Below, piece after piece: positions 9,836 through 34,483 of a stretch of DNA of 34,794 nucleotides (position 1 is the first letter of the stretch; the number at the start of each line of letters is the position of its first letter). The position numbers and the translations under genes are program-made. The notes beneath the pieces are model-generated. The model was not told the origin of the DNA and did not search any database. It worked only from the letters and a program-made list of their open reading frames with translations. Origin of the DNA: Candidatus Brocadia sp. WS118 (GTDB lineage: Bacteria; Planctomycetota; Brocadiia; Brocadiales; Brocadiaceae); assembly GCA_007618135.1 (NCBI GenBank), contig PHFX01000020.1:1-34794 (forward strand). Reading direction: 5' to 3'.

Positions 9836-10994
<1,159 letters not shown>

Positions 10995-11042
10995 TGTATT
11001 GTTTGTAAAATTTTGATTGCTTTGATAAGTACCAAACAACAA

Positions 11043-11155
11043 ATTCCAAATACCAAATAAATTCAAATAGAAAAACACAAAATCCCAAACGAATTGATTG
11101 GATTATCTTGGAATCTGATATTTGGGATTTATTTGGACTTTGGTATTTGAGATTT
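11043..11155. repeat. A/T-rich imperfect inverted repeat (CCAAATACCAAATAAA type)
   Basis: The left part (ATTCCAAATACCAAATAAATT, AAAATCCCAAA) is the imperfect complement of the right part (TTTGGGATTTATTTGG, TTTGGTATTTGAGATTTG). It could fold into a long A/T hairpin after mdh. It abuts the MITE-like element at 11164. Confidence 0.55.
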
Positions 11156-12040: not shown

Positions 12041-12409
12041 ATGAACATTGAAAAACGGGGCTATTGGTCGTGGTTTTTGCAGAGAATTACCGCCATATTG
12101 CTGGTGATGGGGATGTCGATTCATTTCTTTGTCTTTCATTTTAGCCCTGGCAGGTATGCCTCCCGCTATTACGATGAAATTGTCCACCGGTTTTGTTCGC
12201 CGGGATGGATTGCCTTCCATGTCTGCCTCCTTGCGCTGGTTGTTTTTCACGGCCTGAATGGATTGTGGGGCATATTTGCAGACTTTCCGTGGCACGAAAG
12301 AGTCATACAATTCGTGAGGTGGGTGCTCTGGTTGACGGGGCTTACTCTCTTTGGTGTCGGGGTATATATTCTTATTTGGTTTGCAACAACCACAAATAGT
12401 GGGTTTTAG
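12041..12409 (+). CDS. sdhD: Succinate dehydrogenase membrane anchor, SdhD-like
   Basis: These 122 residues have three hydrophobic helices (about 17-38, 60-85 and 95-117). The first helix begins WFLQRITAILL; the second ends HGLNGLWGIFADF, comparable to the His-x-x-x-Gly...Asp segment of SdhD. It would help hold the catalytic dimer on the membrane and bind heme b and quinone. The neighbour 12410-12793 resembles SdhC more, so the order here is SdhD-SdhC-like, opposite to E. coli. Assignment between C and D is tentative; succinate dehydrogenase anchor is secure. Confidence 0.75.
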   Translation: MNIEKRGYWSWFLQRITAILLVMGMSIHFFVFHFSPGRYASRYYDEIVHRFCSPGWIAFHVCLLALVVFHGLNGLWGIFADFPWHERVIQFVRWVLWLTGLTLFGVGVYILIWFATTTNSGF

Positions 12410-12793
12410 GTGTCAGCAATGAATATCCGGAAAATCAAAGAAGTTTTTCAAGATCTCGTAAAAAACAGAAATGCAGGTATGTACGCCTTCTGGATCCATC
12501 GCATTACCGGTGTCGTGGTTACCGTATTTCTCTTTTTGCATATCTGGACACTGAGCGCCGTTTTTCGGGGAAAAGATGCCTACGATTATGCAATTAGCAA
12601 ATTTGATACGACCTTTGGGTATCTGTTTCAATATGTGTTGCTCCTTACCGTAGCGATACACCTGGTCAACGGAATTCGGATTACGGTGGTTGATTTTTGC
12701 GGTGTCACCCGCAGTCAAAAGAAGTTGTTGTGGATATCAATTTTTGCCTTTCTCGTGGTTGCAGCCGTCGGTGCCAAGACGGTACTTTGGTAG
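12410..12793 (+). CDS. sdhC: Succinate dehydrogenase cytochrome b556 subunit, SdhC-like
   Basis: These 127 residues have three helices. The N-terminal cytoplasmic region leads into [17 protein letters not shown], the SdhC quinone/heme signature, and [13 protein letters not shown] near residues 83-95 holds another heme-ligand-type His. GTG at 12410 directly follows the previous stop; the ATG at 12419 is an equally plausible start. Together with the upstream anchor it should bind heme and quinone for complex II. sdhA follows only after an unrelated gene, and no iron-sulfur subunit is seen. Confidence 0.78.
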
Positions 12794-12848
12794 TGTCAGA
12801 AACAGAGGTATCATTGAAAACCAGTCCCGTCTTTGCGATAAATATTTT

Positions 12849-13730
12849 ATGGCTGATATAATTCTTAATGATATGGAGATATCCAACCTTATAAAGGAGC
12901 GAAAAGAATTCCCTCTCAATTATGAAATCCTTTTTCAAGCAAAAGATAAAATGGATATTGCTTTAATAGAAAGTGAATTTAAAAAGAAGATATGCGAGAA
13001 AATAGAAATTTTTCCTGAAGGCAAAGAAAGGTTCAAAATATTCACACCTTTTATGTTTGCGGATGGTGACCATTTGGTATCTGTATTAAAAAAATTACCC
13101 AAAGGATGGGTTATTACAGATGAGGCTCATACGTATATGCATCTTAGCTACGAGCTCGATATGAAGGATTTGGAAAAGGGAACCAGGCAAAAAATAATCA
13201 GTTCAACGCTGTCCATGTTTAATCTGGAGGAGAGCGATGGTGAAATATTGGTAAATGTAGAAGATAACATGTATGGTGACGCCCTTTACAACTTTGTTCA
13301 AGGGATTTTGAAAATTACTGATATAAATTATTTGAATCGGGAACGCGTCAGGTCTACCTTTATGGAAGATTTTAAGGCATACATAACTGAAAAAGTCGAT
13401 GAGAACAGAAGGTTTTTTGATTATTTTGACAAAGTACATGATCCGGAAGGGAAATATACTGTTGATTGTAGGATAAACGGTATGAAAAAACCTCTTTATA
13501 TTTTTGCTGTTGCCACTGATGATAAATGCAGGGATGCAACAATCGGTTGCTTGCAATATGAAAAATGGGGAATGCCATTTCGTTCTGTGGCTATTTTTGA
13601 AGATCAAGAGAAAATTAGTCGTAAGGTTTTGGCTCGGTTTAGCGATGTTTGTGAAAAACAATTCTCTAGCCTTTATTTAAATAAGGATAGAATTGAAAAA
13701 TATTTGCAAGAACAAATGAAAGAAACTTAA
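12849..13730 (+). CDS. DUF1828/DUF1829-type protein of unknown function
   Basis: These 293 residues resemble the DUF1828 family: an N-terminal domain with [23 protein letters not shown] and a [10 protein letters not shown] motif (about 82-110), then a central and C-terminal DUF1829-like part ([25 protein letters not shown]). The role is unknown; relatives are often found near mobile or defence genes. It sits between the sdh anchors and sdhA in the same orientation, is more A/T-rich than its neighbours and has a weak ribosome-binding site. It therefore looks like a late insertion into the sdh operon. The open frame continues upstream into the sdhC gene in another frame, so the ATG at 12849 is chosen. 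Confidence 0.7.
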
Positions 13731-13792
13731 AAACAGCGACAGAAAATATCAGAAAAGATGCAGGGTTGTTACTGCATTTCAAGGAAAATTTC

Positions 13793-15517
13793 ATGATTTA
13801 TCATGATGCTATCGTCGTGGGCGGAGGGTTGGCAGGTCTGAGGGCTGCCATTGCACTCAATCAGCATAATGTGAAGGTTGCGGTGATTTCCAAGGTGCAC
13901 CCCATCCGGTCGCATTCGGTTGCTGCTCAGGGCGGAATTAATGCACCCCTGGGTAATCATCCGCGCGGTATTTACGACACCTGGGAAAAACACGCCTTCG
14001 ATACGGTAAAAGGAAGCGATTACCTGGCAGACCAGGATGCCGTTATCCGCATGACCAAGGAAGCTGCCGAACGCATCTATGAGATGGAGCACTGGGGGTG
14101 CCCTTTCAGCCGGACTTCTGAAGGGAAGATCGCCCAGCGGCCCTTTGGCGGTGCCGGTTTTCCTCGTACCTGCTATGCAGCTGACAAGACCGGGCATGCC
14201 CTTTTGCACACCTTATATCAACAAACCATTAAATTCAAACAGGCAGCTGAAAGGAACGAGATTGTCATCTATGAAGAATGGTTAGTGACAGACCTTGTGA
14301 TTGAAGACGGGGTTTGCGTGGGTGTAATTGTGCTGGATATTATTAGTGGAAGGTTAGAGGCATTCCAGGCTGGGGCTGTAATCTTCGCCACGGGGGGTGT
14401 TGGCCGTATTTACGGAAATAGCACGAATGCCCTGATTAATACCGGTATGGGTATGGCAGTGTCATACTGGGCGGGAATACCACTCAAGGATATGGAGTTT
14501 ATCCAGTTTCATCCCACTACCTTATTGGGTAAAAACATTTTGATTACCGAAGGCTGCCGTGGTGAAGGTGGTTTTCTCCTGAATAACAAAGGTGAGCGTT
14601 TTTTAGCCAAATACCATGATTCAAAAAAAGACATGGAAGTGGCTCCCCGCGACATTATTTCCAGGAATATCATGCGTGAGATTATGGCAGATGGTGGTTT
14701 TCATAATAGCTATGTGCATTTGGATTTGAGACACCTCGGTGAGGAAAAGATTGTCCAAAGATTGCCCGGTATACGGGATATTTGTTTGGAATTTGCCGGG
14801 GTAGATCCTGTGACTGATTTCATTCCTATTCAGCCGGGTCAACACTATACCATGGGTGGAATTGATTGTAACACAGAGGGAGAAACGGCGGTAAAAGGCT
14901 TCTATGCAGCCGGAGAGGCGGCTTGTGTGAGTGTGCACGGAGCGAACCGGCTGGGTGGAAATTCATTGCTGGATACAATTGTCTTCGGTGCGATTGCGGG
15001 CGGCAATGCCGCTAAATATGTGCAGGGATTGGAAGGGAAAAAGGGTGAAGGCGCTCTCAGTGATGCGTTAAAGTGTGCAGAGCAAAAGATCGGTACATTG
15101 GGTAAATCAGGGGGGAATGAAATTCAGGCCGATATCAAAGTTGCCCTCAATAAAGTTATGGATACTAAGGTAGGTATCTTTCGTGAGGCCTCTCACTTGA
15201 AAGAAGCTGTGAACGATATCAAAATCCTGCAAGAGCGGTATGAGCGAATTAAGCTGAATTATACCGGTAGACGGGTTAACCTCAGCCTTGTGTGGGCATT
15301 AGAACTGAAGGGCAGTCTCGATGTGGCTGAGGCTGTTGTCGCAGGCGCGTTGGCACGTGAAGAGAGCAGGGGTTCTCACTTCCGGACTGATTTTCCAAAA
15401 CGAGACGATATGGTTTGGCTAAAACACACGTTAGCGTATTTTACCCCTGTTGGGGTAAGATTGGATTATAAACCCGTTAACATTGGGCCTTTTGAGCCAA
15501 AGGAGAGAAAATATTAA
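13793..15517 (+). CDS. sdhA: Succinate dehydrogenase / fumarate reductase flavoprotein subunit
   Basis: The 574-residue protein has FAD-binding GGGLAGL (10-16), RSHSVAAQGGI with His41 for covalent flavin, and RPFGGAGFPRTCYAADKTG. Also present are QFHPTTL, TEGCRGEGG, the active-site region ending in RDIISRNI, HYTMGGI and GEAACVSVHGANRLGGNSLLD. It oxidises succinate to fumarate, or the reverse. The ATG at 13793 with AAGGAA at 13781-13786 is preferred over 13766, because it gives the family N-terminus directly before the dinucleotide fold. No sdhB follows, so the iron-sulfur subunit must be encoded elsewhere. Confidence 0.93.
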   Translation: MIYHDAIVVGGGLAGLRAAIALNQHNVKVAVISKVHPIRSHSVAAQGGINAPLGNHPRGIYDTWEKHAFDTVKGSDYLADQDAVIRMTKEAAERIYEMEHWGCPFSRTSEGKIAQRPFGGAGFPRTCYAADKTGHALLHTLYQQTIKFKQAAERNEIVIYEEWLVTDLVIEDGVCVGVIVLDIISGRLEAFQAGAVIFATGGVGRIYGNSTNALINTGMGMAVSYWAGIPLKDMEFIQFHPTTLLGKNILITEGCRGEGGFLLNNKGERFLAKYHDSKKDMEVAPRDIISRNIMREIMADGGFHNSYVHLDLRHLGEEKIVQRLPGIRDICLEFAGVDPVTDFIPIQPGQHYTMGGIDCNTEGETAVKGFYAAGEAACVSVHGANRLGGNSLLDTIVFGAIAGGNAAKYVQGLEGKKGEGALSDALKCAEQKIGTLGKSGGNEIQADIKVALNKVMDTKVGIFREASHLKEAVNDIKILQERYERIKLNYTGRRVNLSLVWALELKGSLDVAEAVVAGALAREESRGSHFRTDFPKRDDMVWLKHTLAYFTPVGVRLDYKPVNIGPFEPKERKY

Positions 15518-21661: not shown

Positions 21662-23347
21662 ATGACACGCGATGAACTTTTGCAGCTAATAGCAGAAGTG
21701 AAGAGTCACCAAAGCGAAATGAACAATATTGAAGTAAAGTCAGCAAAGGAAGGGACTCCAAAGCGTCTTTATGAAGTGTTTTCTGCTTTTGCCAACCGTA
21801 CAGGTGGAGGGGTAATTCTTTTTGGTCTGGATGAAAATGAGAATTTTGAGATTGTTGGAGTTGGTGATGTGCAACGTTTGCAGACAGAAATTAGTAATAT
21901 TGTCACCTCAGAGATGGAACCTCTTTTACGTCCTGAATTTAGCATTGAAGATATTGATGATAAGAAAGTTATGGCTGTTGAGGTTTATGCAGTCGAAGCA
22001 GAAGCAAGACCTTGCTATTACAAACCTGCTGGGCTTCAGAAAGGTGCTTATATCAGGGTCGGAAATACTAATCGCTTGATGACTGATTATGAAATTTTTG
22101 GTTATGTAAGTGCAAAAACTCAACCAACATTTGATGGAGAGCTTGTAAAAGATGCTACTCTGGAAGATTTGAATCGTGAAAAACTGGAAACATATTTAGA
22201 GCTGTTGAAACGGACTCGACCACAAGCAGCGTATTTGAAGCAATCTTTCGAACACATCTTAGCGCAACTGCACATAATTAGAAAGTCAGAAGGAATATTT
22301 CGTCCGACTCTGGCAGGTTTATTAATGTTTGGCAACTACCCGCAGACATTTGAACCTCAACTGGTTATTACCTTTCTTCAATATTATGGTGTGGCAGAGT
22401 CGGAAAAGACACCACGGGGTGAACGATTTCTGGATAACAGGAAGTTTGAAGGAACTATTCCTGATATGGTGGCGGGTGCTGTTAACCACGTAATGGCAAC
22501 TATTCGAAAAGGGAGTTTGATTGAGGGTCTCTTCAGGCGGGATATACCTGAATACCCGGAAGAGGCAGTACGAGAGGCTGTTGGCAACGCTGTAGCTCAC
22601 CGAGATTACAGCAATTTTGTACGTGGTGGTTATATTCAAATCCGTCTTTTTGCTGATCGCTTGGAAATCCAGAGTCCAGGCGGGTTGTATGGAAATGTGA
22701 CTGAAGAAACGCTGGAAGTTGAACAGTCAACCCGTAATCGAACATTAGTTCGATTAATGGAAGATATGCACTTAATCGAGAACCGTGGTAGTGGCATTAA
22801 TACTATGATAGAGGCCATGAGAAGTGCTAACTTAGAACCTCCTCGGTTTCAGGATAAAAGGAGTTCTTTTTGGGTAATACTTCGCAATCTTACTTTAATG
22901 GATCAAGCAGCAATCTCGTGGTTAAACCGATTTGCTAATCGACCACTTAATGACCGTCAGCGTTTGGCGCTAGTTTATTTACGACATATCAAATCAATCA
23001 CAAATTGCGACTACCAGCGACTTAACCAGGTAGATTCGGTTACTGCGAATAGAGAATTACGCGGTTTAGTTCGAACAGGTTTAATAAAACTTCATGGCGC
23101 TAGACGTTGGGCGCGTTATACACTAAATGTGCCAATTGAAGAGCAAATTCTTTCAATACTAAAAACACAAGAAACAAAAATTTTAGACTATATACGCGAA
23201 CACGGATTTATTAAGCGGGCAGATTGTATTAAATTATTGAATCTCAAGGATACTCAAGCCAAGACTATTCTTTTTAAAATGCGTAATCAAGGACTTTTAA
23301 AGCAACAAGGAACGAGAAAAGACACTCGATATATTTTGCCTGATTAA
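21662..23347 (+). CDS. AlbA_2 (Schlafen-like) domain ATP-binding transcriptional-regulator-type protein
   Basis: This 561-residue COG2865-type protein begins with an AlbA_2/Schlafen-like domain (about 10-130: EVKSAKEGTPKRL, AFANRTGGGVILFGLDE, GAYIRVGNTNRLM). It continues with a GHKL-type ATPase around 290-400 (EAVGNAVAHRDYS as N-box, RLEIQSPGG, ENRGSGI). The C-terminus has winged-helix modules (about 425-560). Such genes often sit inside type I restriction loci between hsdS and hsdR. Here hsdM and hsdS are only fragments and hsdR is absent, so this is a surviving orphan. It appears full length and intact. Its biochemical role is unknown; nucleic-acid binding is expected. Confidence 0.8.
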   Translation: MTRDELLQLIAEVKSHQSEMNNIEVKSAKEGTPKRLYEVFSAFANRTGGGVILFGLDENENFEIVGVGDVQRLQTEISNIVTSEMEPLLRPEFSIEDIDDKKVMAVEVYAVEAEARPCYYKPAGLQKGAYIRVGNTNRLMTDYEIFGYVSAKTQPTFDGELVKDATLEDLNREKLETYLELLKRTRPQAAYLKQSFEHILAQLHIIRKSEGIFRPTLAGLLMFGNYPQTFEPQLVITFLQYYGVAESEKTPRGERFLDNRKFEGTIPDMVAGAVNHVMATIRKGSLIEGLFRRDIPEYPEEAVREAVGNAVAHRDYSNFVRGGYIQIRLFADRLEIQSPGGLYGNVTEETLEVEQSTRNRTLVRLMEDMHLIENRGSGINTMIEAMRSANLEPPRFQDKRSSFWVILRNLTLMDQAAISWLNRFANRPLNDRQRLALVYLRHIKSITNCDYQRLNQVDSVTANRELRGLVRTGLIKLHGARRWARYTLNVPIEEQILSILKTQETKILDYIREHGFIKRADCIKLLNLKDTQAKTILFKMRNQGLLKQQGTRKDTRYILPD

Positions 23348-23365
23348 TGGTGTTTAACGTTCGTA

Positions 23366-23420
23366 AAATATCCATAAATATCCATAAATATCCATAAATA
23401 TCCATAAATATCCATAAAAT
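23366..23420. repeat. 10-bp tandem repeat, five units
   Basis: TCCATAAATA starts at 23371, 23381, 23391 and 23401; a fifth unit at 23411 ends AAAAT. A partial unit precedes them. It lies between the AlbA_2 gene and the broken radC. Such arrays vary by slippage and may mark a deletion or recombination point. Confidence 0.9.
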
Positions 23421-23444
23421 AGTGTACAAGGATAGAAAATCTCA

Positions 23445-23737
23445 ATGAAAAAGATTGCCCCATTCCAAAATCAGACCGGCATCGTGAAAAGCTTCGGGAA
23501 AAGGGCGCGGAGGTGTTATCAGACACGGAGCTCCTTGCCGACCCTGTCACTGACAGTGCTGCTGCGATAATCGTTGCACACAACCATCCTTCAGGGAGCT
23601 TATCACCCAGCAAAGAGGATGTTGAGGTAACCAAACAATTAAAGGCAGCCGGAGAAACCCTGGGCATCAAAGTATTAGGCCATATCATTTTTAACCAGAA
23701 AGGGTATTACAGTTTCCTGGAAAAAGGGGAATGGTAA
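23445..23737 (+). pseudogene. radC pseudogene, frameshifted and internally deleted
   Basis: After MKKIAPFQNQ a frameshift leads into DRHREKLREKGAEVLSDTELLA, the RadC N-terminal helix. This joins directly to DSAAAIIVAHNHPSG ... SKEDVEV, the JAB/JAMM metal site near the C-terminus, and continues to a normal end (SFLEKGEW). About 100 central residues, including the upstream catalytic Glu, are missing, so the product would be inactive. An ATG at 23513 could still express the C-terminal 74 residues. Confidence 0.75.
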
Positions 23738-23843: not shown

Positions 23844-26800
23844 ATGTTTCCTTTCAAGTCAATTAAAAACCGGTTAATACTGATCCTCCTGCTCTGCTCG
23901 TTTACGCCCTTATTGTTGCTGCGGTTTATGGCATTTCCCAAGGCACAAAAGGATCTGGAAGAGGCCTTGATACGAAACCTGGAGGGGGTCAAGCAAAAGC
24001 AGGTCGAGATTGTAAAGATGTGGTTTGAAGAAAGAAAGCGAGACGCAAAGGTAGTAAGCAGAAATGTGTCTTCGCTCATGGAACGGAGCGTGGATGATAA
24101 GTTCAGAGGTTTCCCAAAGATAAACGATTACCTTGAGATAGTTAAGTCAGAGTATGGATACAAAGCAGTATGCATTAGTTTGCGTGACGGAACGGTGCTG
24201 GTAGCCACAGAACGGGAATGCATAGGTTCCAGCATCATGAACGATGATTATTGCAGAGAGGCATTAAATGGAAGTGTTTTCATATCAAAAATTCAATACG
24301 TTGTTCCAGGCGAGAAGAACGGTAAACAGGGCGACAGCAACGTCCCGGTGTTGTTTCTCTCCGCCCCGCTCACTGATTCTAACGATCGTGTGACAGGAGC
24401 GGTCGTTCTGACGGTAGATACGTCGCCCCTTACCGGGATCATGAAAAGCGCAAAATTAGGAAAAACGGGGGAGACTTTCCTTATCAATCGGGAAGGTTTT
24501 ATGCTTACTGAGTCACCTTTTGCCGATGCAATACAAAAGGCTGGTCTGGTTCAGCAGGGGACAACATTAGCGTTAAGGGTAATAAACCCGCATACGGGGA
24601 AACTTACGGAGGGGGCACAAAAATGTCTGAGCGGCAATGACGGATATGACGCAGGTGGTTACAAAAATTACGATGGCAGGAAGGTGCTGGGTGCGTGGTG
24701 CTGGATTCCTGAGCACGAGTGCGGTTTGCTTGCACAAATTGATATCCGGGAGGGGTATGGTGCGGCGCATAGCTTAAAGACCTTTGTTCTTTCGATGCTC
24801 CTGGTACTGGCTTTTCCCTTGATATTGACGGCATTTTATTTTGGGAAACGGATTTCCGCCCCTATTTTAAAGATAACGGAGATGACGAAAAAAATTACCA
24901 GCGGCGACCTGGGGCAACGGGTAAAGGATCGCGGCAAAAAAGACGAAATTAGCGAGCTGGCACAGGCTTTCAACGTGATGGCTGAATCCCTGGAGGAAAA
25001 AACGGTTAAACTAAGAAATTATACCGCCGACCTGGAGAATACGGTAAAAGAGAGGACCCTGAAGCTGCAGGAAACGACGAATTTTTTAAATAGTATTTTA
25101 GCAGGTTCTACGGAATATTCGATTATTGCAGAAGATTTGAATGGCAATATCCTCGCGTTTAATAAAGGGGCGAGTCTGATTTATGGTTATAAACCAGAAG
25201 AAATGATTGGTGTGGCGAATGTGAGGGTCCTTCATACCGGGGAAGATTTAAAAGGGGGAAAGGTCGACCGTATGCTGGAGGTTGCGCGCACAACGGGCCG
25301 GTATGAGGGGGAAGTTTTCAGAAAGAGAAAGAATGGTGAAGTTTTTCCCGTCCATGTTACGTTCACCTTGCGGCGTGACGAAAAAGGACAACCTATTGGA
25401 TTTGTGGTGATATCCAAAGATATTACCGAAGAAAAGACCGTGACGCTCGAAAAAGAAATTGTTAATAACGTCAATAAGATTATTGCCTCGGGTCTGGATA
25501 TTAAAGAAATATACAAAAACATTTACCACGAATTGAAACGGAGAATTGATTGTGTCTGGCTGGGGGTGGCATGTCTTGTCGACGGGACAGAAATTGTTGA
25601 GGATTCTCATGTTGTCGATGGGGTGTTATTGTCCACCGACTGGTTGCATTGCTACCGGTCTCTTTCGGATGCAACGGCACAGGATCTCTCGATCAAAAAG
25701 GGGATTCCTGTTTTCGTTCAGGACACCCATGAAGGAACGTATCACTTTGACCGGGAATTATCTGAAAAGGGGATACATTCGTATGTTTGCTTTCCGCTGA
25801 AATCAAAAGGAATAACCGTAGGAGCGGTTACCCTGGGAAGCAGGAAAAAAGATGCATTTAGCGAAGCACATTTCGGATTATTAAGTCAAGTTATTCCCCA
25901 ATTGGCTATTGCCATTGAAAATGCAAGACTTTTTTTCTCCACGCGGGAATCGGAAAAGAAATATCGGGACCTTGTGGAAAATGCACCGGAAATGATTCAC
26001 GAGGTTAGCCTGAAGGGAAATTTTATTAACGTCAACAAGACAGAATTGAATAAATTAGGATATTCCCCTGAAGAAATGAGGCGGATGACCCTGGAAGATA
26101 TTGTGCCCCTTGAATATCGGGAAGAAATAAAGAGACTTATCAAGAGGATTCAGGAAACTGGGAGTGGTGAGTTGGAAACGGTGTTTATGACAAAATCGGG
26201 AAAGGAAATCAACGTCGAGATTAACGGGACGGGTCTTTACAATGCAAAAACGGGGGAGTGTGTTTGTGTGAGGGCGTTTGTGAGGGATATTACGGAAAGA
26301 AAAAGGATGGAGGAACAAGTCCGTCGGTCAGAAAAACTGGCATCGATGGGTGAGTTCGCTGCAGCGATTGCGCATGAGATTCGCAATCCCCTGGGTGCAA
26401 TATGCAATTCTGTGGGCATTTTGGACTCCCATTTAAAATTGACAGGGCAGGACAAAGATCTGCTGGAGATGATTGTAGGCCAATCCGAAAGATTAGACAG
26501 AATTATCAGCAATTTCCTGGTTTTTGCCCATCCCAGCGAACCATCCTTCTCTTTGCAGGATATCCGGGAAGTGATTAAAAATACCCTTTTCCTGTTAGAG
26601 CAGGACAGCCGGTTTACCGATCAGGTGGAGCTAAAAGAGGTATACGAGAGTGTATTGCCAAAAGTTTATATTGATCCGGATCTTATCCACCAGGTATTAT
26701 GGAATTTACTGATAAATTCTCTTGAGGCAATGCCGGATGGCGGGCAGATTAAGATAATGGTAAGAAAGACGAATGTTTTTTTACGAGACGCCGTTGAGAT

Positions 26801-27047
26801 TGTGATATCAGACACGGGAGTCGGTGTGCCGGTGCACGAATTGGAAAAGATATTTGAACCTTTTTATACAACAAAGACAGAGGGGACAGGCTTGGGTCTC
26901 TCGGTGGTTCAGCGGATCATTGATGATCATGGAGGGACGATTGATGCCAGGAGTAAAAAAGACAAAGGGACGACCTTTAATATCAAATTGCCTGTCGGAA
27001 ATGAAAAATTAGCAGTTCAGCAACAATTTAGTTTTTTGAAAAAGTAG
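23844..27047 (+). CDS. Membrane sensor histidine kinase: dCache-HAMP-PAS-GAF-PAS-HisKA-HATPase
   Basis: The 1067-residue kinase has one helix at about 8-30 and a second at about 315-333 bounding a double-Cache periplasmic domain (SEYGYKAVCISLRDGTVLVAT; KLGKTGETFLINREGFMLTES). A HAMP linker (about 335-390), PAS (about 410-530), GAF (about 545-690) and a second PAS (about 705-825) follow. HisKA with His844 in AIAHEIRNPLGA and a HATPase (LINSLEAMP, DTGVGVP, GTGLGLSVV) complete it. The last eight codons and the stop come from a MITE-like insertion at 27020. The NtrC-like regulator at 27210 is the likely partner. Its sensor half is paralogous to the protein at 30105. The ligand is unknown; Cache domains bind small molecules. 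Confidence 0.9.
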   Translation: MFPFKSIKNRLILILLLCSFTPLLLLRFMAFPKAQKDLEEALIRNLEGVKQKQVEIVKMWFEERKRDAKVVSRNVSSLMERSVDDKFRGFPKINDYLEIVKSEYGYKAVCISLRDGTVLVATERECIGSSIMNDDYCREALNGSVFISKIQYVVPGEKNGKQGDSNVPVLFLSAPLTDSNDRVTGAVVLTVDTSPLTGIMKSAKLGKTGETFLINREGFMLTESPFADAIQKAGLVQQGTTLALRVINPHTGKLTEGAQKCLSGNDGYDAGGYKNYDGRKVLGAWCWIPEHECGLLAQIDIREGYGAAHSLKTFVLSMLLVLAFPLILTAFYFGKRISAPILKITEMTKKITSGDLGQRVKDRGKKDEISELAQAFNVMAESLEEKTVKLRNYTADLENTVKERTLKLQETTNFLNSILAGSTEYSIIAEDLNGNILAFNKGASLIYGYKPEEMIGVANVRVLHTGEDLKGGKVDRMLEVARTTGRYEGEVFRKRKNGEVFPVHVTFTLRRDEKGQPIGFVVISKDITEEKTVTLEKEIVNNVNKIIASGLDIKEIYKNIYHELKRRIDCVWLGVACLVDGTEIVEDSHVVDGVLLSTDWLHCYRSLSDATAQDLSIKKGIPVFVQDTHEGTYHFDRELSEKGIHSYVCFPLKSKGITVGAVTLGSRKKDAFSEAHFGLLSQVIPQLAIAIENARLFFSTRESEKKYRDLVENAPEMIHEVSLKGNFINVNKTELNKLGYSPEEMRRMTLEDIVPLEYREEIKRLIKRIQETGSGELETVFMTKSGKEINVEINGTGLYNAKTGECVCVRAFVRDITERKRMEEQVRRSEKLASMGEFAAAIAHEIRNPLGAICNSVGILDSHLKLTGQDKDLLEMIVGQSERLDRIISNFLVFAHPSEPSFSLQDIREVIKNTLFLLEQDSRFTDQVELKEVYESVLPKVYIDPDLIHQVLWNLLINSLEAMPDGGQIKIMVRKTNVFLRDAVEIVISDTGVGVPVHELEKIFEPFYTTKTEGTGLGLSVVQRIIDDHGGTIDARSKKDKGTTFNIKLPVGNEKLAVQQQFSFLKK

Positions 27048-27209: not shown

Positions 27210-28616
27210 ATGGAAAACGGTAAAATCCTTGTTGTGGAAGATCAGGATGCCATGAGAGAATCCCTCATGATTGCCTTTCGGGATGAAGGGTACCAGGTAG
27301 ATGTCGCGGTAAGCGGGGAGGAGGCTATCCAAAAATTAGGGAACTACGACGGATATGACTTGGTTGTGACAGATTTAAAGATGAAAAAGGTTGACGGTCT
27401 GGAAGTGCTTAAATCGGCGAAAGCCCTGTGTCCGTCCACAGAAGTAGTATTGATTACTGCCTATGGTACTATCAGCACGGCAGTGCAGGCGATTCGCGAT
27501 GGGGCATATGACTATGTGACAAAACCTTTCCGCCATCAGGAAATTTTGAAAGTTGCAAAAAAGGCGATCGAGAAAAAGAGCTTAAAGGACAGAGTCAGGT
27601 ACCTCGAAGGGGAAATGAGAGAGAAATATAAATTTGAAGGCATTGTGGGGAATTCAAATGCCATGCTGGAAGTCTTAAAAATAACTTCACAGGTGTGCCG
27701 GACTGAAAGTACAGTCCTGATAACGGGAGAGAGTGGAACAGGAAAGGAACTGTGTGCCCGGGCCATTCATTATAACAGCCTGCGGAAAGAATGCCCCTTT
27801 ATTGTGATTAATTGTGGTGCATTACCTGAAAATCTGCAGGAAAGCGAACTGTTTGGGCATATGCGGGGGGCATTTACCGGTGCTGTTAAGGATAAGGTTG
27901 GATTATTCCTGCAGGCGCAAAAGGGGACGATTTTATTGGACGAAATTGGAGAGACTTCTCCGTCAACGCAGGTAAAACTCCTGCGGTTTCTGCAGGACGG
28001 CGAGATTCGTCCTGTCGGAGGAAACAAGGCGATACACGTAGACGCGAGAATTATTGCGTCGACCAATGAAAATCTGGAAAAGGCGGTTGAGTCTGGAAAA
28101 TTCAGAAAAGATCTTTTCTATCGCATCAATGTAATCCGTATTCACCTTCCCCCCCTCAGAGAGCGGCGGGAAGATATTCCCCTCCTGGTAGACTATTTTT
28201 TAGAAAAAATTTTAGAGAAACTGAAAAAGGGGAAAAGGGTGTTTTCCGAAGAATCGATGCGGGCATTCATGAATTATGATTGGCCTGGCAATATCAGAGA
28301 GCTTCAGAATATTATAGAAAGAGCCGTTACCCTGTCTAAGAATGAGGTAATCAACGTAGAAGAACTTCCGCTTCCCATCGAGGAATTTACCATGCTTGCC
28401 AGAGACCCCATCGAGGTACAAAAGAGAAAGTCCTTTATTGTAACGACCCTTGCAGAACAAGAAAAGAATGCGATTGTTGAGGCCTTGAATAAATATGGAG
28501 GCAATCAGACAAAAGTGGCGCAGATACTCGGCATATCAACGACAACCCTCTGGAGAAAGATAAAAAAATACAAGATCAGGCCACAGCACGAAATATCGGA
28601 TAAGACAGATCGGTAA
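27210..28616 (+). CDS. NtrC-family sigma-54-dependent response regulator
   Basis: These 468 residues are built as receiver-AAA+-Fis. The receiver has the acidic pair in VVEDQD, phosphoacceptor Asp55 (VVTDLKM), TAYG and KPF. The AAA+ domain has Walker A GESGTGKE from residue 173, the sigma-54 contact loop GAFTGA near 220, ILLDEIGE as Walker B and the arginine region in FRKDLFYRINVI. The C-terminal Fis-type helix-turn-helix reads GNQTKVAQILGISTTTLWRKI. It activates sigma-54 promoters after phosphorylation, probably by the kinase at 23844. The first ATG with a full receiver is at 27210; the upstream AGGATG is weak. I found no -24/-12 element with intact GG and GC in the neighbouring spacers. Confidence 0.93.
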   Translation: MENGKILVVEDQDAMRESLMIAFRDEGYQVDVAVSGEEAIQKLGNYDGYDLVVTDLKMKKVDGLEVLKSAKALCPSTEVVLITAYGTISTAVQAIRDGAYDYVTKPFRHQEILKVAKKAIEKKSLKDRVRYLEGEMREKYKFEGIVGNSNAMLEVLKITSQVCRTESTVLITGESGTGKELCARAIHYNSLRKECPFIVINCGALPENLQESELFGHMRGAFTGAVKDKVGLFLQAQKGTILLDEIGETSPSTQVKLLRFLQDGEIRPVGGNKAIHVDARIIASTNENLEKAVESGKFRKDLFYRINVIRIHLPPLRERREDIPLLVDYFLEKILEKLKKGKRVFSEESMRAFMNYDWPGNIRELQNIIERAVTLSKNEVINVEELPLPIEEFTMLARDPIEVQKRKSFIVTTLAEQEKNAIVEALNKYGGNQTKVAQILGISTTTLWRKIKKYKIRPQHEISDKTDR

Positions 28617-29313: not shown

Positions 29314-29494
29314 ATGTTCAGGAATTTCAAAGTGGAAAAAAGTTTTATCGGATGTTGAAAAGGAGAAAGAGCGCTGAGGTCAAAAAGGTTGTCGACGTAA
29401 AGTTTGAAGTAAAGGAAAGTCTTGAAGAAAAAGAAGGATGTTTTGCCGGTTTCGTAAGAATTTTTAAAAAGTCATCACAGGGGGGAAAGAGAAT

Positions 29495-30032
29495 TATGCC
29501 AATAACGGAGGGGATAAATAAAATAAGCGCGTATGTAAAAAAGTTGCCCAAGGCGCCACAGCCTGAGCTCACTGCAAGAGAGGTGTGGCTTTCTCTCTGG
29601 GGGGCGCTTTTGGGGATAGGGATAACGGCGTTGCTGGCCTTTACCTGGAAGTGTCCGATGTTATTAGGGTCTTTTGGATCTACCGCACCATTGATTTATT
29701 GTGCGTATAAGTCGCCTCTGGCGCAACCAAGAAATGTCGTGCTGGGGCATTTCCTCGGCGCAAGTATTGGTGTGGTTATCAATGATTTCTTTGGCGTGAC
29801 GTGGTGGTCGATTGCGCTTACCGTCGCCCTTGCTATTATTCTTATGTTTACGACGTATTCGATACATCCCCCGGCAGGCGCAACGGCATATGTAGCTGTT
29901 CAGACGGGGGGATTGGGCGTCGGATATTGGTTTATCCTGAATCCCACGATGTTGGGAATATTTATCATGCTGACCGTGGCAGTGGTCTTTAATAAGATGA
30001 GCAAGAGAGATTATCCAACACATTGGTACTAA
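29495..30032 (+). CDS. HPP-family membrane protein (putative nitrite transporter type)
   Basis: These 178 residues have four to five hydrophobic helices and the family signatures LLGSFGSTAPL, PLAQPRNVVLGHFLGASIGV and SIHPPAGATAYVAVQ, which holds the HPP motif that names the family. Plant chloroplast and cyanobacterial members have been reported as nitrite transporters; that is family knowledge, not shown here. The ATG at 29495 is favoured by the AGGGGGGAAAGAG before it. An upstream ATG at 29352 would add a charged 48-residue extension and is possible. The next genes are a sensor, a coiled-coil protein, a receiver and FocA, all co-directional. Confidence 0.82.
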
Positions 30033-30104
30033 AAGGCGGCATCGATTGAATCTGATGTTCGTGAATCTAAGTGTAACAAAGTTTGCTAAATTACGGAGAA
30101 AATT

Positions 30105-32393
30105 ATGTATATCTCGATTAAAAATCGGATCGTTTTTTTACTGATTGTATTTACCTTGCTGCCATTTGTATTATTGCGGATTATTGCTTACCCAAGAATA
30201 CAATCTGATCTGCAGGAGGTACTCATACGAAACCTCGATGGTATCGGACATAAACAGGCGGAATTGGTAACTACCTGGGCGCAAGAAAGGATGAAAAATG
30301 CCCGCGTTGTAGCAAACAATCCACTGATGATCAAATGTGCAAAGATCACAAAGAATGATAAAGATTACCAGGATGTCGTCCAATATCTGGAGGTGGTAAA
30401 GAGTGAATATGGTTTTAAAGGGGTACTTGTAAGTAATGATAAAGGCGTGGTAACAGTAGCTACAGCAGGGGAAGACGTAGGCAGTGATATTTCGCAGATG
30501 GATTACTTCAATCAGGCATTACAGGGAAATACCTTTGTGTCAAATATTATTCCATCTGAAATCCCGCTTACCAATGAATTTGGTGAGAAAGAGCTGGGTA
30601 TGCCTACGATGTTCGTTTCAACACCACTGAAAGATCGTGACGGAGTTATCATTGGCGTTGTTGCCATTAGAGTCGACGAAAAGACGCTTAACGATCTGAT
30701 GTTAAGTCTTCATTTGGGGAAGACGGGGGAGACGTATCTGTTAAATAAAGATGGGTACATGATCACTGAATCGAGGTTTGCTGCGCATTTAAAAGAGATG
30801 GGGTTGGTGAAAAAGAGGTGTGCACTGGAATTGAAGCTGGTTAACCCGGAAACGGGTGAATTCACCAATGGTGTGCAACAGTGTATTGCCGGGAACAATG
30901 GTTTTGACGCAAAAGGGTATAAAGATTACAGCGGCCTGACCGTGTTAGGTGTGTGGCGTTGGCTGCCTGAATTTAATTGGGGTATTATGGCGGAAATTGA
31001 TAGAGATGAAGGGTATGGAGCTGCCTATAATCTTAAATATATTGTGACTTCGGTTTTGCTGGTGATTGCATTTCCTATTGTGATTGTGGCGTATTTTATT
31101 GGTAGAAAGACGTCGACACCGATTATTAAGTTGAGAGAAGTAACCGAAAAGATGGCATCAGGGGATTTAACCCAACGGGTGGACATCAAGCGGGACGACG
31201 AGATTGGAATATTAGCGAATTCTTTTAACACCATGGCGAAATCTTTGGATGAGAAAACAAAGGAAGTGACCGAGTCCGAGAAACGTTACCGGGGATTGTT
31301 TGGTTCTATAAAGGAAGGGGTTTATCAGTCGGATCCTGGCGCTGATGGTGTTTTTACCTTTATTAATAAGGCGGGAGCTGAAATATTAGGCTATAGCACC
31401 CCGGAAGAGGTGATCGGGACAAAGGTAAAAGATATTTATGTAGATTCGGAAGACCGAAGGCGCCTTTGCGAGAAACTTGAAAAAGATGGTATTTGGAGGG
31501 ATTTTGTGTCCCTGTGTAAAAGAAAAAATGGCGATAGCTTTTATGCAGAACGCACAAGCAATATGCTTCGGGACGAGAAAGGGATTCCTGTGGCAATTTA
31601 CGGAGTATTCCGGGATATCTCAGAAAGGAAAAAGGCTGAGCAGGAGGTTACGGAATCAGAAAAGAGGTATCGATTGTTATTCGATTCCATAAAAGAGGGT
31701 GTTTATCAATCCGAGCCAGGACCTGAAGGTGTATTTACCTGGATTAACCTGGCTGGCGCAGAAATTCTCGGGTATAAATCTCCGGAAGAAGTTATAGGAA
31801 CGAAAGTAAAGGATGTTTACGTAAATCCAGATGATCGTATCAAGCTTCTCGAAAAACTCGAGAAAGAGAGGGCGTGGAAAGGTTTTGTCTCTTTTTGTAA
31901 GCGAAAAACAGGAGAACGTTTCTATATGGAACGGACGTCTAATCTGGTCGTTGATGAAAAGGGTAAGGCCGTTCGGGTTGATGGAATATTCAGAGATATT
32001 ACCGAGCGGAAGAAATTTGAGGAGGAATTACAGGAATCAGAAAAACATCACCGGCAATTGCTGAACTCGTTGAAGGAAGGAATATATCAGTCTGAATCGG
32101 CAGAAGATGGGGTTTTTACGTGGATTAATCAGGCCGGTGCTGAAATTCTCGGTTACAGTTCGCCGGAAGAAGTAATTGGGACGCGGGTAAAAGACCTATA
32201 CGTGAATCCGGATGACCGGAAGGAATTACTTGAGAAATTGGAAAAGGAAGGGGTATGGAGGGATTTTACCTCATATTGCAAGAGGAAAAATGGTGAACGG
32301 TTTATTTCCGAACGTACATGCAACCTCGTGCGTGATGAAAACGGAAAACCGATAAGAATTGAAGGTGTATTTAGGGACATAACGGAAAGATAA
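30105..32393 (+). CDS. dCache-HAMP sensor with three tandem PAS units and no output domain
   Basis: This 762-residue protein has a transmembrane helix at about 8-28, a dCache periplasmic domain and a second helix near 310-330. A HAMP domain (about 333-385) leads to three PAS/PAC units of exactly 127-residue period starting near residues 390, 517 and 644. Each unit reads SEK..R.L..S.KEG.YQS, then GAEILGY and FRDI(S/T)ER. The protein stops at the end of the third PAC: no HisKA, GGDEF or methyl-accepting segment follows. The N-terminal ~380 residues are paralogous to the kinase at 23844. GGAG precedes the ATG. It must signal through a partner, perhaps the coiled-coil protein next door, or be a truncated kinase. 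Confidence 0.88.
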   Translation: MYISIKNRIVFLLIVFTLLPFVLLRIIAYPRIQSDLQEVLIRNLDGIGHKQAELVTTWAQERMKNARVVANNPLMIKCAKITKNDKDYQDVVQYLEVVKSEYGFKGVLVSNDKGVVTVATAGEDVGSDISQMDYFNQALQGNTFVSNIIPSEIPLTNEFGEKELGMPTMFVSTPLKDRDGVIIGVVAIRVDEKTLNDLMLSLHLGKTGETYLLNKDGYMITESRFAAHLKEMGLVKKRCALELKLVNPETGEFTNGVQQCIAGNNGFDAKGYKDYSGLTVLGVWRWLPEFNWGIMAEIDRDEGYGAAYNLKYIVTSVLLVIAFPIVIVAYFIGRKTSTPIIKLREVTEKMASGDLTQRVDIKRDDEIGILANSFNTMAKSLDEKTKEVTESEKRYRGLFGSIKEGVYQSDPGADGVFTFINKAGAEILGYSTPEEVIGTKVKDIYVDSEDRRRLCEKLEKDGIWRDFVSLCKRKNGDSFYAERTSNMLRDEKGIPVAIYGVFRDISERKKAEQEVTESEKRYRLLFDSIKEGVYQSEPGPEGVFTWINLAGAEILGYKSPEEVIGTKVKDVYVNPDDRIKLLEKLEKERAWKGFVSFCKRKTGERFYMERTSNLVVDEKGKAVRVDGIFRDITERKKFEEELQESEKHHRQLLNSLKEGIYQSESAEDGVFTWINQAGAEILGYSSPEEVIGTRVKDLYVNPDDRKELLEKLEKEGVWRDFTSYCKRKNGERFISERTCNLVRDENGKPIRIEGVFRDITER

Positions 32394-32446
32394 TGCGATT
32401 ATTTTTAAAAGAATTGAAATACACTGAACGTGGGGAGTAGAGAATT

Positions 32447-32980
32447 ATGGGAAACGGAGCGGCAAAGGGTTTGTCGGTAAATGCGAAGACCCTTATTATG
32501 ATATTGTTGTTTGTAAATGTCGGGTTTGCATTCAAGATGATTCATAAGTATTACGCAATGAAAGAGGCAGGCTATATCAGGGAAAAGACGTTTCGTGATC
32601 AGCTTGAGACACGGGTAATGAAGGCCTTTGGTTCCATGGAAGAGTTGAACAAGATGGTGAATGATATTACCGGGCGAAAGGAAGAGGCAGAAAAGATCGC
32701 AGCCTCTTTCCAGGAGCAAGGTGAGCAATTAAAGTTTACAAACAAAAACCTTGAAGAGGCAAAGACACATCTGGAGGAGGAAAAGGCGCGGCTGCAAAGG
32801 GAGATCTGGGAGCTAGAGGACTCGCTGTCGCTTGCAAAAAAGACGTTAAGTAATAAAGATTTAACCATTCAGGAGCTTATGAATAATTTGGATATCCTTG
32901 GAAAGGAAAAGGCAACGCTCAAGAAACAGCTTGAGGAATATTCAAAAACACCAGGAGCGTGGAGTCTTCCCAAGCAGTAA
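32447..32980 (+). CDS. Membrane-anchored coiled-coil protein of unknown function
   Basis: These 177 residues have one hydrophobic helix (about 10-27, KTLIMILLFVNVGFAF) followed by a long, heavily charged alpha-helical coiled coil (about 55-165, heptads rich in Lys, Glu and Leu, for example LEEAKTHLEEEKARLQREI). The C-terminus is a short proline-containing tail. No family is recognised. GGGGAG precedes the ATG. Its position between the kinase-less sensor and the degenerate receiver, in a tight co-directional row, suggests a structural or signalling bridge at the membrane; that is inference. Confidence 0.75.
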   Translation: MGNGAAKGLSVNAKTLIMILLFVNVGFAFKMIHKYYAMKEAGYIREKTFRDQLETRVMKAFGSMEELNKMVNDITGRKEEAEKIAASFQEQGEQLKFTNKNLEEAKTHLEEEKARLQREIWELEDSLSLAKKTLSNKDLTIQELMNNLDILGKEKATLKKQLEEYSKTPGAWSLPKQ

Positions 32981-33016
32981 GACTTACATTCATGATACAT
33001 CCGACGAAAGATTTTT

Positions 33017-33421
33017 ATGATAAGGATATTAATTATCGAAGGGCAGGGGAAGATACGCCGGTCGTTGGTCAGCATCTTAAAGCGGGAAGGTTTTGGGATA
33101 TGTGAGGGAACAGGATGGGATGGGGCATTGAAGGCGTGTGGAAAAGAAGCCTATGACCTCGTTATGGTAGATTTAGATGCAAAGCCACCGGAAGGCGAAG
33201 AGATTTTAAGGAAGATAAAACGTGCCAATTGTACCACAGAAATTGTGGCAATTGCTTCTCAAAACAGGTATGATGCAAATCAGGTAAATAGTTATGGGGT
33301 ATATGATTTCCTTCAGAAACCTTTTCGTCAGAAAGAAGCAATTCAGTTAGTAAAGAAGGCGTTGGAGAAAAAGCAATTGGCTGATAAGGTACGCAACCTG
33401 GAGAAGATTATAGATAGCTGA
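33017..33421 (+). CDS. Degenerate stand-alone receiver domain
   Basis: This 134-residue single receiver aligns with the receiver of the sigma-54 regulator at 27210, including the following helix (KKALEKKQLADKVRNLE against KKAIEKKSLKDRVRYLE). Asp52 and the KPF lysine are kept. The Mg-binding acidic pair ED has become E8-G9 (IIEGQGK), and the conserved Thr is replaced by Ala (AIASQ). It may be weakly phosphorylated or not at all, acting as a pseudo-receiver. It has no output domain. FocA follows 171 bp downstream. A weak GAAAG element precedes the ATG. Confidence 0.85.
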   Translation: MIRILIIEGQGKIRRSLVSILKREGFGICEGTGWDGALKACGKEAYDLVMVDLDAKPPEGEEILRKIKRANCTTEIVAIASQNRYDANQVNSYGVYDFLQKPFRQKEAIQLVKKALEKKQLADKVRNLEKIIDS

Positions 33422-33540
33422 GATTGAATCTGTTAATAAAAAAAGAAAGGGGGTGTAATCAAGTAAATAACAATGAGGATATGAGATGTTTATGTATGTT
33501 AGAAGTATGTTCAAGAGTTGAAACGTAGCAAAACTAAAGG

Positions 33541-33577
33541 GGTGTTGTTTTGAGAGTATTGATCACAACAACATTTT
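33541..33577 (+). promoter_or_regulatory. Inverted repeat in the focA leader
   Basis: TGTTGTT (33543-33549) and AACAACA (33568-33574) form a perfect 7-bp inverted repeat just before the AGAGGAG ribosome-binding site of focA. A leader hairpin could influence translation. No clear sigma-70 or sigma-54 promoter is visible in 33422-33592. Confidence 0.3.
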
Positions 33578-33592
33578 AGAGGAGAACAATTA

Positions 33593-34483
33593 ATGTTATA
33601 TACTGGAAATGTAGATGCAATTGCAGCGGTGTCATTAAAAAAGGCCACTGCTATGAAGCATAGCCTGATAGGCTTCCTGACGCTTTCTGTAATTGCTGGT
33701 TTTTTTATTGGATTTGGTGTCCTTCTCATGATTATTGCTGCTGCTCCTGTTGCCGCGATAAATCCTGGAATAGGGAAGATAGTTGGTGGTGCAACATTTG
33801 GTATTGCTTTGATATTGGTAATTATTGCCGGAGCTGAGTTGTTTACCGGATATAATTTACTGATATTTAAAGGTACTTTGCGGGGCACCGTAACATTTGG
33901 CGATTCAATGCTGGGCTGGTTCTGGACGTACTTAGGCAACCTGGGTGGATCCTTGATTTTTGCGCTTATAATTTATATGACGGGTGTGTTTGCCCCTGAT
34001 CCATGGCATACCTTTTTGAACAAGGTAGCTACCTACAAATGCAATGCGCCATGGTGGGAATTATTTTTCAGGGGTATCTTTTGCAACTGGCTCGTATGTC
34101 TGGGTATATGGAGTACTTTCCGGGTTACCAGCGATAGTGCCAAGATCATGATGGCCTGGTGGGTTTTGTTTGTTTTTGTTACTACCGGAATGGAACACAG
34201 TGTGGCCAATATGACGTTATTGGCGATTGCGAATATGTTGCCCCATGACCCGGCGGCAATTTCATGGGGTAAGATGTTTGGCTGGAATCTTGTTCCTGTG
34301 ACCCTCGGTAACATCGTAGGCGGTACGTTCTTTGTCACCTTCCTGTACTGGTTTGCTACGTACATGGATGAAAGAGGCGCAAGAAAGATGGAGTCCATAA
34401 AGGGTGGTTCCGGAGCAGGAAGTTTGCCTCGTGCCGGTGGATCTCCTGAGGAAATAAAAGATGTTAAGGTAAAGATGAAGTAA
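33593..34483 (+). CDS. focA: Formate/nitrite transporter (FNT family, FocA/NirC type)
   Basis: The 296-residue channel has six helices. AGAELFTGYNLLIFKG forms the broken helix and omega loop of FNT channels. FRGIFCNWLVCLGIW and FVTTGMEHSVANM follow; the latter contains the central pore His202. FNT proteins form pentamers moving formate, nitrite or related monovalent anions, often with protons. The C-terminal ~30 residues are a glycine/lysine-rich tail not usual in FocA. AGAGGAG precedes the ATG. In a nitrite-dependent bacterium, nitrite is the likeliest substrate, but formate cannot be excluded from sequence. Confidence 0.9.
   Translation: MLYTGNVDAIAAVSLKKATAMKHSLIGFLTLSVIAGFFIGFGVLLMIIAAAPVAAINPGIGKIVGGATFGIALILVIIAGAELFTGYNLLIFKGTLRGTVTFGDSMLGWFWTYLGNLGGSLIFALIIYMTGVFAPDPWHTFLNKVATYKCNAPWWELFFRGIFCNWLVCLGIWSTFRVTSDSAKIMMAWWVLFVFVTTGMEHSVANMTLLAIANMLPHDPAAISWGKMFGWNLVPVTLGNIVGGTFFVTFLYWFATYMDERGARKMESIKGGSGAGSLPRAGGSPEEIKDVKVKMK

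Follow-up and report, generated by a model that had tools for sequence, protein, structure and literature searches.

A receptor gene pair between two transporter-type genes

The genome of Candidatus Brocadia sp. WS118 (GCA_007618135.1) carries a group of five genes on the + strand in which a kinase-less membrane receptor and a small coiled-coil protein are bracketed by two transporter-type genes. The group lies on contig PHFX01000020.1, whose entire length of 34,794 nucleotides (nt) forms the window of this analysis (our contig C236; the genome comprises 5.04 Mb in 299 contigs). A Pfam scan confirmed the genes and domains listed in an initial annotation of the sequence, together with their positions, except that the first start codon lies at 29496 and not at 29495. 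In order, the group encodes an HPP-family protein with four transmembrane (TM) segments, a putative nitrite transporter (29496-30032); the receptor, here called dCP (30105-32393); the coiled-coil protein, here called CC (32447-32980); a stand-alone, degenerate receiver (33017-33421); and a channel of the FNT family (33593-34483). The HPP protein has both the TM_HPP domain (9.8e-46) and the HPP motif (SIHPPAG in the translation), and a second in-frame ATG is found at 29352. As had been noted before, the sensory module between the two transporter-type genes contains no domain that Pfam recognises as an output.

The receptor dCP is built of a TM segment, a dCache domain, a second TM segment, a HAMP domain and three PAS domains, and it stops at the last of these (PAS3, 32028-32390). 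Its Pfam matches (dCache_1 9e-19, HAMP 4.6e-16) place it in the dCache_1 receptor family, and an AlphaFold2 model of its sensor domain aligns to dCache structures with Z scores of 17-21 (up to 20.8) at a root mean square deviation of ~3-5 A. Neither HisKA nor HATPase was detected in the window dCP or in the scanned relatives from loci L123, L125 and L009, and Pfam found no MCPsignal, GGDEF, EAL or cyclase output in dCP. The absence of a kinase is genuine: none of the dCP orthologues examined is fused to one, and a loss through assembly truncation is ruled out by the length of the protein, which is exactly 762 amino acids in most Brocadiaceae-type loci, including those of single-contig genomes. 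Mean pairwise identities, computed over 15 members of the window's family, are highest for PAS3 of all domains in the locus (93.5%, compared with 86.4% for PAS1, 83.0% for PAS2, 80.0% for dCache, 85.5% for the FNT core, 77.8% for CC and 88.5% for the kinase core of the histidine kinase encoded upstream); the value for HPP is 78.9%. A solo second dCP of 635 amino acids with two PAS domains occurs at L009 (10442-12349, on its own contig C249), where it adjoins a gene with a protein-kinase domain and no CC is present.

The second member of the pair, CC, is a single-TM protein of 177 amino acids without any Pfam family above its cut-off. It is predicted to form two long helices (residues 11-61 and 64-167; predicted local distance difference test 85.5), the first of which contains the TM segment, and the TM and juxtamembrane part is conserved. 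In several Scalindua genomes CC bears a C-terminal PAS domain that is nested among the PAS domains of Scalindua dCP (support 98), beside dCP PAS2/PAS3 (89). A PAS domain thus appears to have moved from one gene to the other, a good circumstantial indication that their products work together, and the fusion would place the coiled coil of CC on the cytoplasmic (PAS) side of the membrane.

The channel belongs to the FNT family by its Form_Nir_trans domain (5.3e-72; 242.5 bits against a cut-off of 34.6). It had been named FocA, but a sequence search of the PDB shows HSC and NirC to be its closest solved structures (E 2e-46 and 3e-45, against 4e-28 for FocA), and we therefore refer to it as NirC-like. 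Nitrite is its putative substrate, the bearing data being the expression of its Kuenenia homologue. The gene is preceded by a leader (33446-33592) with a conserved GAAAGGGGGTG block, a TGTTGTTTT...ACAACAACA dyad and a strong ribosome binding site, the region of which is invariant in relatives; Rfam returned no match anywhere in the window, the leader included. Parts of the leader also precede a solo FNT copy at L174 (own contig C147), 93% identical to that of the window and with an MFS transporter nearby. The C-terminal tail EEIKDVKVKMK is kept in nearly all Brocadiaceae-type channels, but it was dropped as a candidate docking signal, since a solo FNT copy has it too and it is thus unspecific. 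A second FNT copy near a PII-type protein is found at L174 and at L122/L152, the one in Jettenia lying near a CC-like protein without dCP. An extension of ~200 residues at the C-terminus distinguishes the FNT of L112 (11492-12952), in which Pfam finds the FNT domain alone, and also an FNT-like tail at the contig edge in L117 (2-673).

Conservation among anammox genomes and a second cargo

Across the order, 47 of 62 genomes yielded a CC match: all 33 of the window's family, 14 of the 17 of the family that holds Scalindua and none of the 12 others. Family labels were inferred from named matches, among which the window's family comprises Brocadia, Jettenia, Kuenenia, Loosdrechtia and unnamed relatives. 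The five-gene order is not a peculiarity of this assembly. Brocadiaceae have HPP, dCP, CC, the receiver where present, and FNT, whereas in Scalindua FNT comes first, followed by HPP, dCP and CC; the adjacency of dCP and CC is preserved in both Brocadiaceae and Scalinduaceae. An HPP match stands directly upstream of dCP in 37 loci, and this holds wherever the contig extends far enough. Since the order is maintained across dozens of genomes, chance can be excluded as its cause. The ratios of nonsynonymous to synonymous substitution (dN/dS) of dCP, CC and FNT are well under 1. One of the 44 named CC matches is labelled Deltaproteobacteria (L173); it is probably misbinned, because its dCP begins with exactly the same sequence as the dCP of the Scalindua locus L172.

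Seven genomes (that of K. hertensis and six of Scalindua type) show a different neighbourhood, in which dCP and CC are followed by a beta-carbonic anhydrase (PF00484, ~288 amino acids) in place of the nitrite genes (L123, L124, L125 and L205-L208; also L169-L173). Several of these loci have genes for DabA and a partner antiporter-type protein, SulP or NhaA nearby, and no orthologue of the upstream kinase and regulator, no receiver, no HPP and no FNT was found at them. Their CC proteins form a single clade (100/99). Because these loci pair dCP and CC without nitrite genes, kinase, regulator or receiver, the two genes are a portable unit with exchangeable cargo, and both types of cargo handle small inorganic anions. 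The class is tied to inorganic carbon and serves as an independent comparison for the nitrite module.

Kuenenia and one more genus have the receptor divided into separate dCache and PAS-PAS open reading frames (ORFs), which in Kuenenia overlap by 4 nt at L110 and L111 and still have CC and FNT downstream. At L111 (Kuenenia, genome G031) HPP (10536-11103) is also in pieces, owing to an internal stop and a shift of frame, and by gene order and number the pieces are probably the short ORFs kuste3050 and kuste3051. The cluster kuste3050-3055 of Kuenenia stuttgartiensis has been described in the literature as a cluster of nitrite transporter genes (PMC6423088) and is the focA_2 operon of PMC7438415. 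Because it has six genes in the same order as L111, kuste3052 would be the dCache gene, kuste3053 PAS-PAS, kuste3054 CC and kuste3055 the channel, an orthologue of the window FNT by gene order. The cluster thus shares with the window locus the sequence of HPP, dCache, PAS-PAS, CC and FNT, and its mRNA is nitrite-responsive, but it has no receiver and its dCP is split in two. Without nitrite the mRNA drops 7.5-10-fold for the HPP pieces, 3-fold for dCache and PAS-PAS, 5-fold for CC and 36-fold for the channel (PMC6423088). The sensory genes are annotated as hypothetical or of unknown function, and our literature search found no paper that describes them. The view that no such system had been described therefore stands for the sensory genes in the papers found, but not for the cluster, which is known as one of nitrite transport.

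The receiver and the kinase-regulator pair upstream

Outside the core module, directly upstream of it, the window encodes a sensor histidine kinase (HK; 23844-27047, +) with the Pfam architecture dCache-HAMP-PAS-GAF-PAS-HisKA-HATPase and an NtrC-type response regulator (27210-28616, +; REC-AAA-Fis), a pair that is complete, as first described. It occupies this position in ~20 Brocadiaceae loci including the window and is unlinked in others. An orthologue of the HK dCache domain (at least 52% identity) is present in 32 of the 33 Brocadiaceae-type genomes; the best match in Scalindua reaches ~42%, and dCP is present in Scalindua although this HK has no orthologue there.

The downstream genes had been regarded as a duplicated and stripped copy of this pair, which applies to the receiver and not to the sensor. 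The receiver (134 amino acids; Response_reg 1.2e-14) branches with NtrC receivers, with support of 99/98 for a clade that also holds an NtrC paralogue on contig C80 and of 93/77, on a long stem, for a direct sister relation to the upstream NtrC receivers. In trees of such short domains many forks are left open. The dCache domains of HK and dCP are ~42% identical, and in the dCache tree the sensor domains of Brocadiaceae and Scalindua dCP cluster together, separate from that of HK. Because the dCP domains of both families group apart from HK, the sensor is no recent stripped duplicate of its neighbour but an old lineage of its own.

The receiver occurs in 28 of the 33 genomes of the window's family. 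The window copy keeps D52 and K101 and has lost part of its acidic pocket (E8-G9, the second acid being Gly), as had been pointed out; this defect is not general in the family, in which 21 of 28 members retain E-E or E-D and 18 of 28 retain the acid pair, D52 and K101 together. The Thr/Ser switch residue is present in one of 29 and lost in the other 28, and the window copy accordingly lacks the full receiver set of acid pair, phospho-Asp, Thr/Ser and Lys. The core evolves fast (50-57% identity), unlike the retained alpha5/linker helix (residues 113-134), which is similar to the NtrC linker and has 84% identity. The receiver may be able to dimerise with NtrC.

A sigma-54-like sequence, TGGTATCACGATTGCG, is common to the Scalindua loci L112, L115, L116 and L118, ~200-240 nt upstream of FNT. 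In most Brocadiaceae loci the region ahead of the FNT gene yielded no sigma-54 site that fits the strict consensus. Sigma-54 sites near -290 upstream of dCP were not accepted as promoters, as most of them recur within the HPP coding region.

Proposed action of the receptor pair

We tentatively favour, at somewhat less than an even chance, that dCP and CC are an effector-free receptor pair with a local action on the anion-handling protein encoded beside it. The two proteins would form a membrane receptor without enzymatic output, the target of which would be the NirC-type channel and HPP at the present locus and, in the second class, the beta-carbonic anhydrase. The dCache domain could bind either the substrate itself or a periplasmic or lumenal ligand, the signal would run via HAMP into the PAS array, and the terminal PAS could dock onto the coiled coil of CC, so that the complex would gate, assemble or position the transporter in the membrane. 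In Brocadiaceae the receiver-derived accessory may in addition link the pair to the adjacent HK and NtrC, which would set transcription. The observations that speak for this are the gene content, the missing output domains, the conserved gene order with dCP-CC adjacency in two families, the portability of the pair between two types of cargo, the fusion of a dCP-lineage PAS to CC, the conservation of PAS3, the split Kuenenia receptor that keeps CC and FNT, the comparable label-free signals of the dCache protein (1.16M), CC (0.34M) and the channel (0.47M) in the Kuenenia proteome, in which the HPP pieces and PAS-PAS were undetected (PMC6423088), and the dN/dS values below 1. The physical coupling of the module to the neighbouring transporter suggested in the initial annotation would fit the evidence.

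Several points weigh against the proposal. The HK-NtrC pair directly upstream in ~20 Brocadiaceae loci would provide a conventional output, and the 36-fold drop of the channel mRNA, set against the 3-fold drop of dCache and PAS-PAS, points to strong transcriptional control of the channel (PMC6423088). The label-free signals of the Kuenenia proteins are no measure of stoichiometry. The structure models are of monomers only, and the structural matches of the dCache domain, which include amino-acid, dicarboxylate and urate receptors at 10-20% identity, name no ligand. The complex itself, its ligand and its action at the protein level thus belong to the conditional part of the proposal.

The main rival, a strong one that we consider less likely, is that dCP and CC serve as a co-receptor or dominant-negative partner of the adjacent HK, mixed dimers formed through the related dCache-HAMP parts tuning the kinase. 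Sigma-54-dependent switching of the nitrite genes would then fall to NtrC, with which the stand-alone receiver would compete or dimerise. The position of the HK-NtrC pair and the near-universal HK orthologue in Brocadiaceae-type genomes agree with this, as do the resemblance of the two dCache domains, the ancestry and retained linker helix of the receiver, the strong response of the channel gene to nitrite and the sigma-54-like site in four Scalindua loci. In some genomes (L098/L126, L109/L212), however, the pair is unlinked, and Scalindua has no orthologue of it. Five Brocadiaceae-type genomes, second copies and Scalindua lack the receiver, and most Brocadiaceae loci yielded no strict-consensus site. 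The carbonic anhydrase class, which has neither HK-NtrC nor receiver, also excludes titration of HK or NtrC as the general function of dCP-CC. The co-receptor explanation hence suits Brocadiaceae but not Scalindua or the carbonic anhydrase class.

It is rather improbable that dCP passes its signal to a kinase or other partner encoded elsewhere, the operon merely co-expressing a general small-anion sensor and CC being a dimerisation or anchoring factor of dCP that never contacts the transporter. The genome encodes many unlinked PAS, kinase and receiver proteins, and a missing output domain leaves any partner possible, but the order is conserved with two unrelated types of cargo and no unlinked partner was identified. 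Least of all do we expect a mainly structural role, in which dCP and CC would mark or scaffold a membrane, cytoplasmic or anammoxosome, for the placement of channel or enzyme with little ligand-driven signalling. In favour of it are the several membranes of anammox cells and their many copies of transporters (PMC7438415), as well as the long TM coiled coil with its conserved TM and juxtamembrane part; the dCache, HAMP and PAS domains are nonetheless intact and conserved, as in a working sensor.

For comparison with known systems we return to the local action of dCP-CC on its neighbours. In PhoR-PhoU-PstSCAB a PAS-containing sensor is joined to an anion transporter via an adaptor, but there the sensor PhoR is itself a kinase, the adaptor PhoU bears no relation to CC and transport is by an ABC system. 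DctA-DcuS (PMC4280142), where the transporter is co-sensor of a kinase, shares with dCP-CC a membrane sensor that works with a small-anion transporter; DcuS, however, belongs to the histidine kinases and has a regulator of its own, while dCP has no kinase and CC has no counterpart there. AmtB-GlnK (PMC7438415) likewise has its regulator encoded beside the channel, and that of AmtB acts at the protein level; GlnK is a soluble PII protein, unrelated to the membrane-bound dCP-CC, and gating is shown for AmtB only. The ammonium sensor kinase Ks-Amt5 (Pfluger 2018), as it is cited in PMC7438415, also ties sensing in an anammox bacterium to a transporter-type protein, but its transporter fold and kinase form one protein, whereas here sensor and channel are separate and kinase-less.

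New in the present analysis are the top conservation of PAS3, the fusion of a dCP-lineage PAS to CC in Scalindua and the carbonic anhydrase class. It is possible, if doubtful, that dCP-CC is the first member to be described of a class of receptor pairs without effector, in which a terminal PAS docks on a TM coiled coil and a neighbouring channel or enzyme is thereby controlled directly, and that anammox bacteria have one version for nitrite uptake and another for inorganic-carbon conversion. Nitrite is both a substrate and a poison for anammox bacteria, and to our knowledge the control of its uptake in them has not been established. Because a relative of the pair adjoins carbonic anhydrase, our data suggest an undescribed way of matching small-anion uptake to supply. 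If the pair does act directly on the channel, signal output would come from an enzyme-less receptor that automatic annotation has overlooked, its genes now being 'hypothetical'. In Kuenenia the main channel, which responds to nitrite, is the one linked to the module; the module proteins are detectably abundant and the module is conserved across the two main anammox families, so that the question can be tested with existing cultures and proteomes.

Elsewhere in the window, two Sdh_cyt genes and a succinate dehydrogenase flavoprotein gene lie at 12041-15517, with a DUF1828 ORF in between (12690-13730), and a Schlafen/AlbA_2 gene is followed by a RadC-like fragment of 74 amino acids at 21662-23737.

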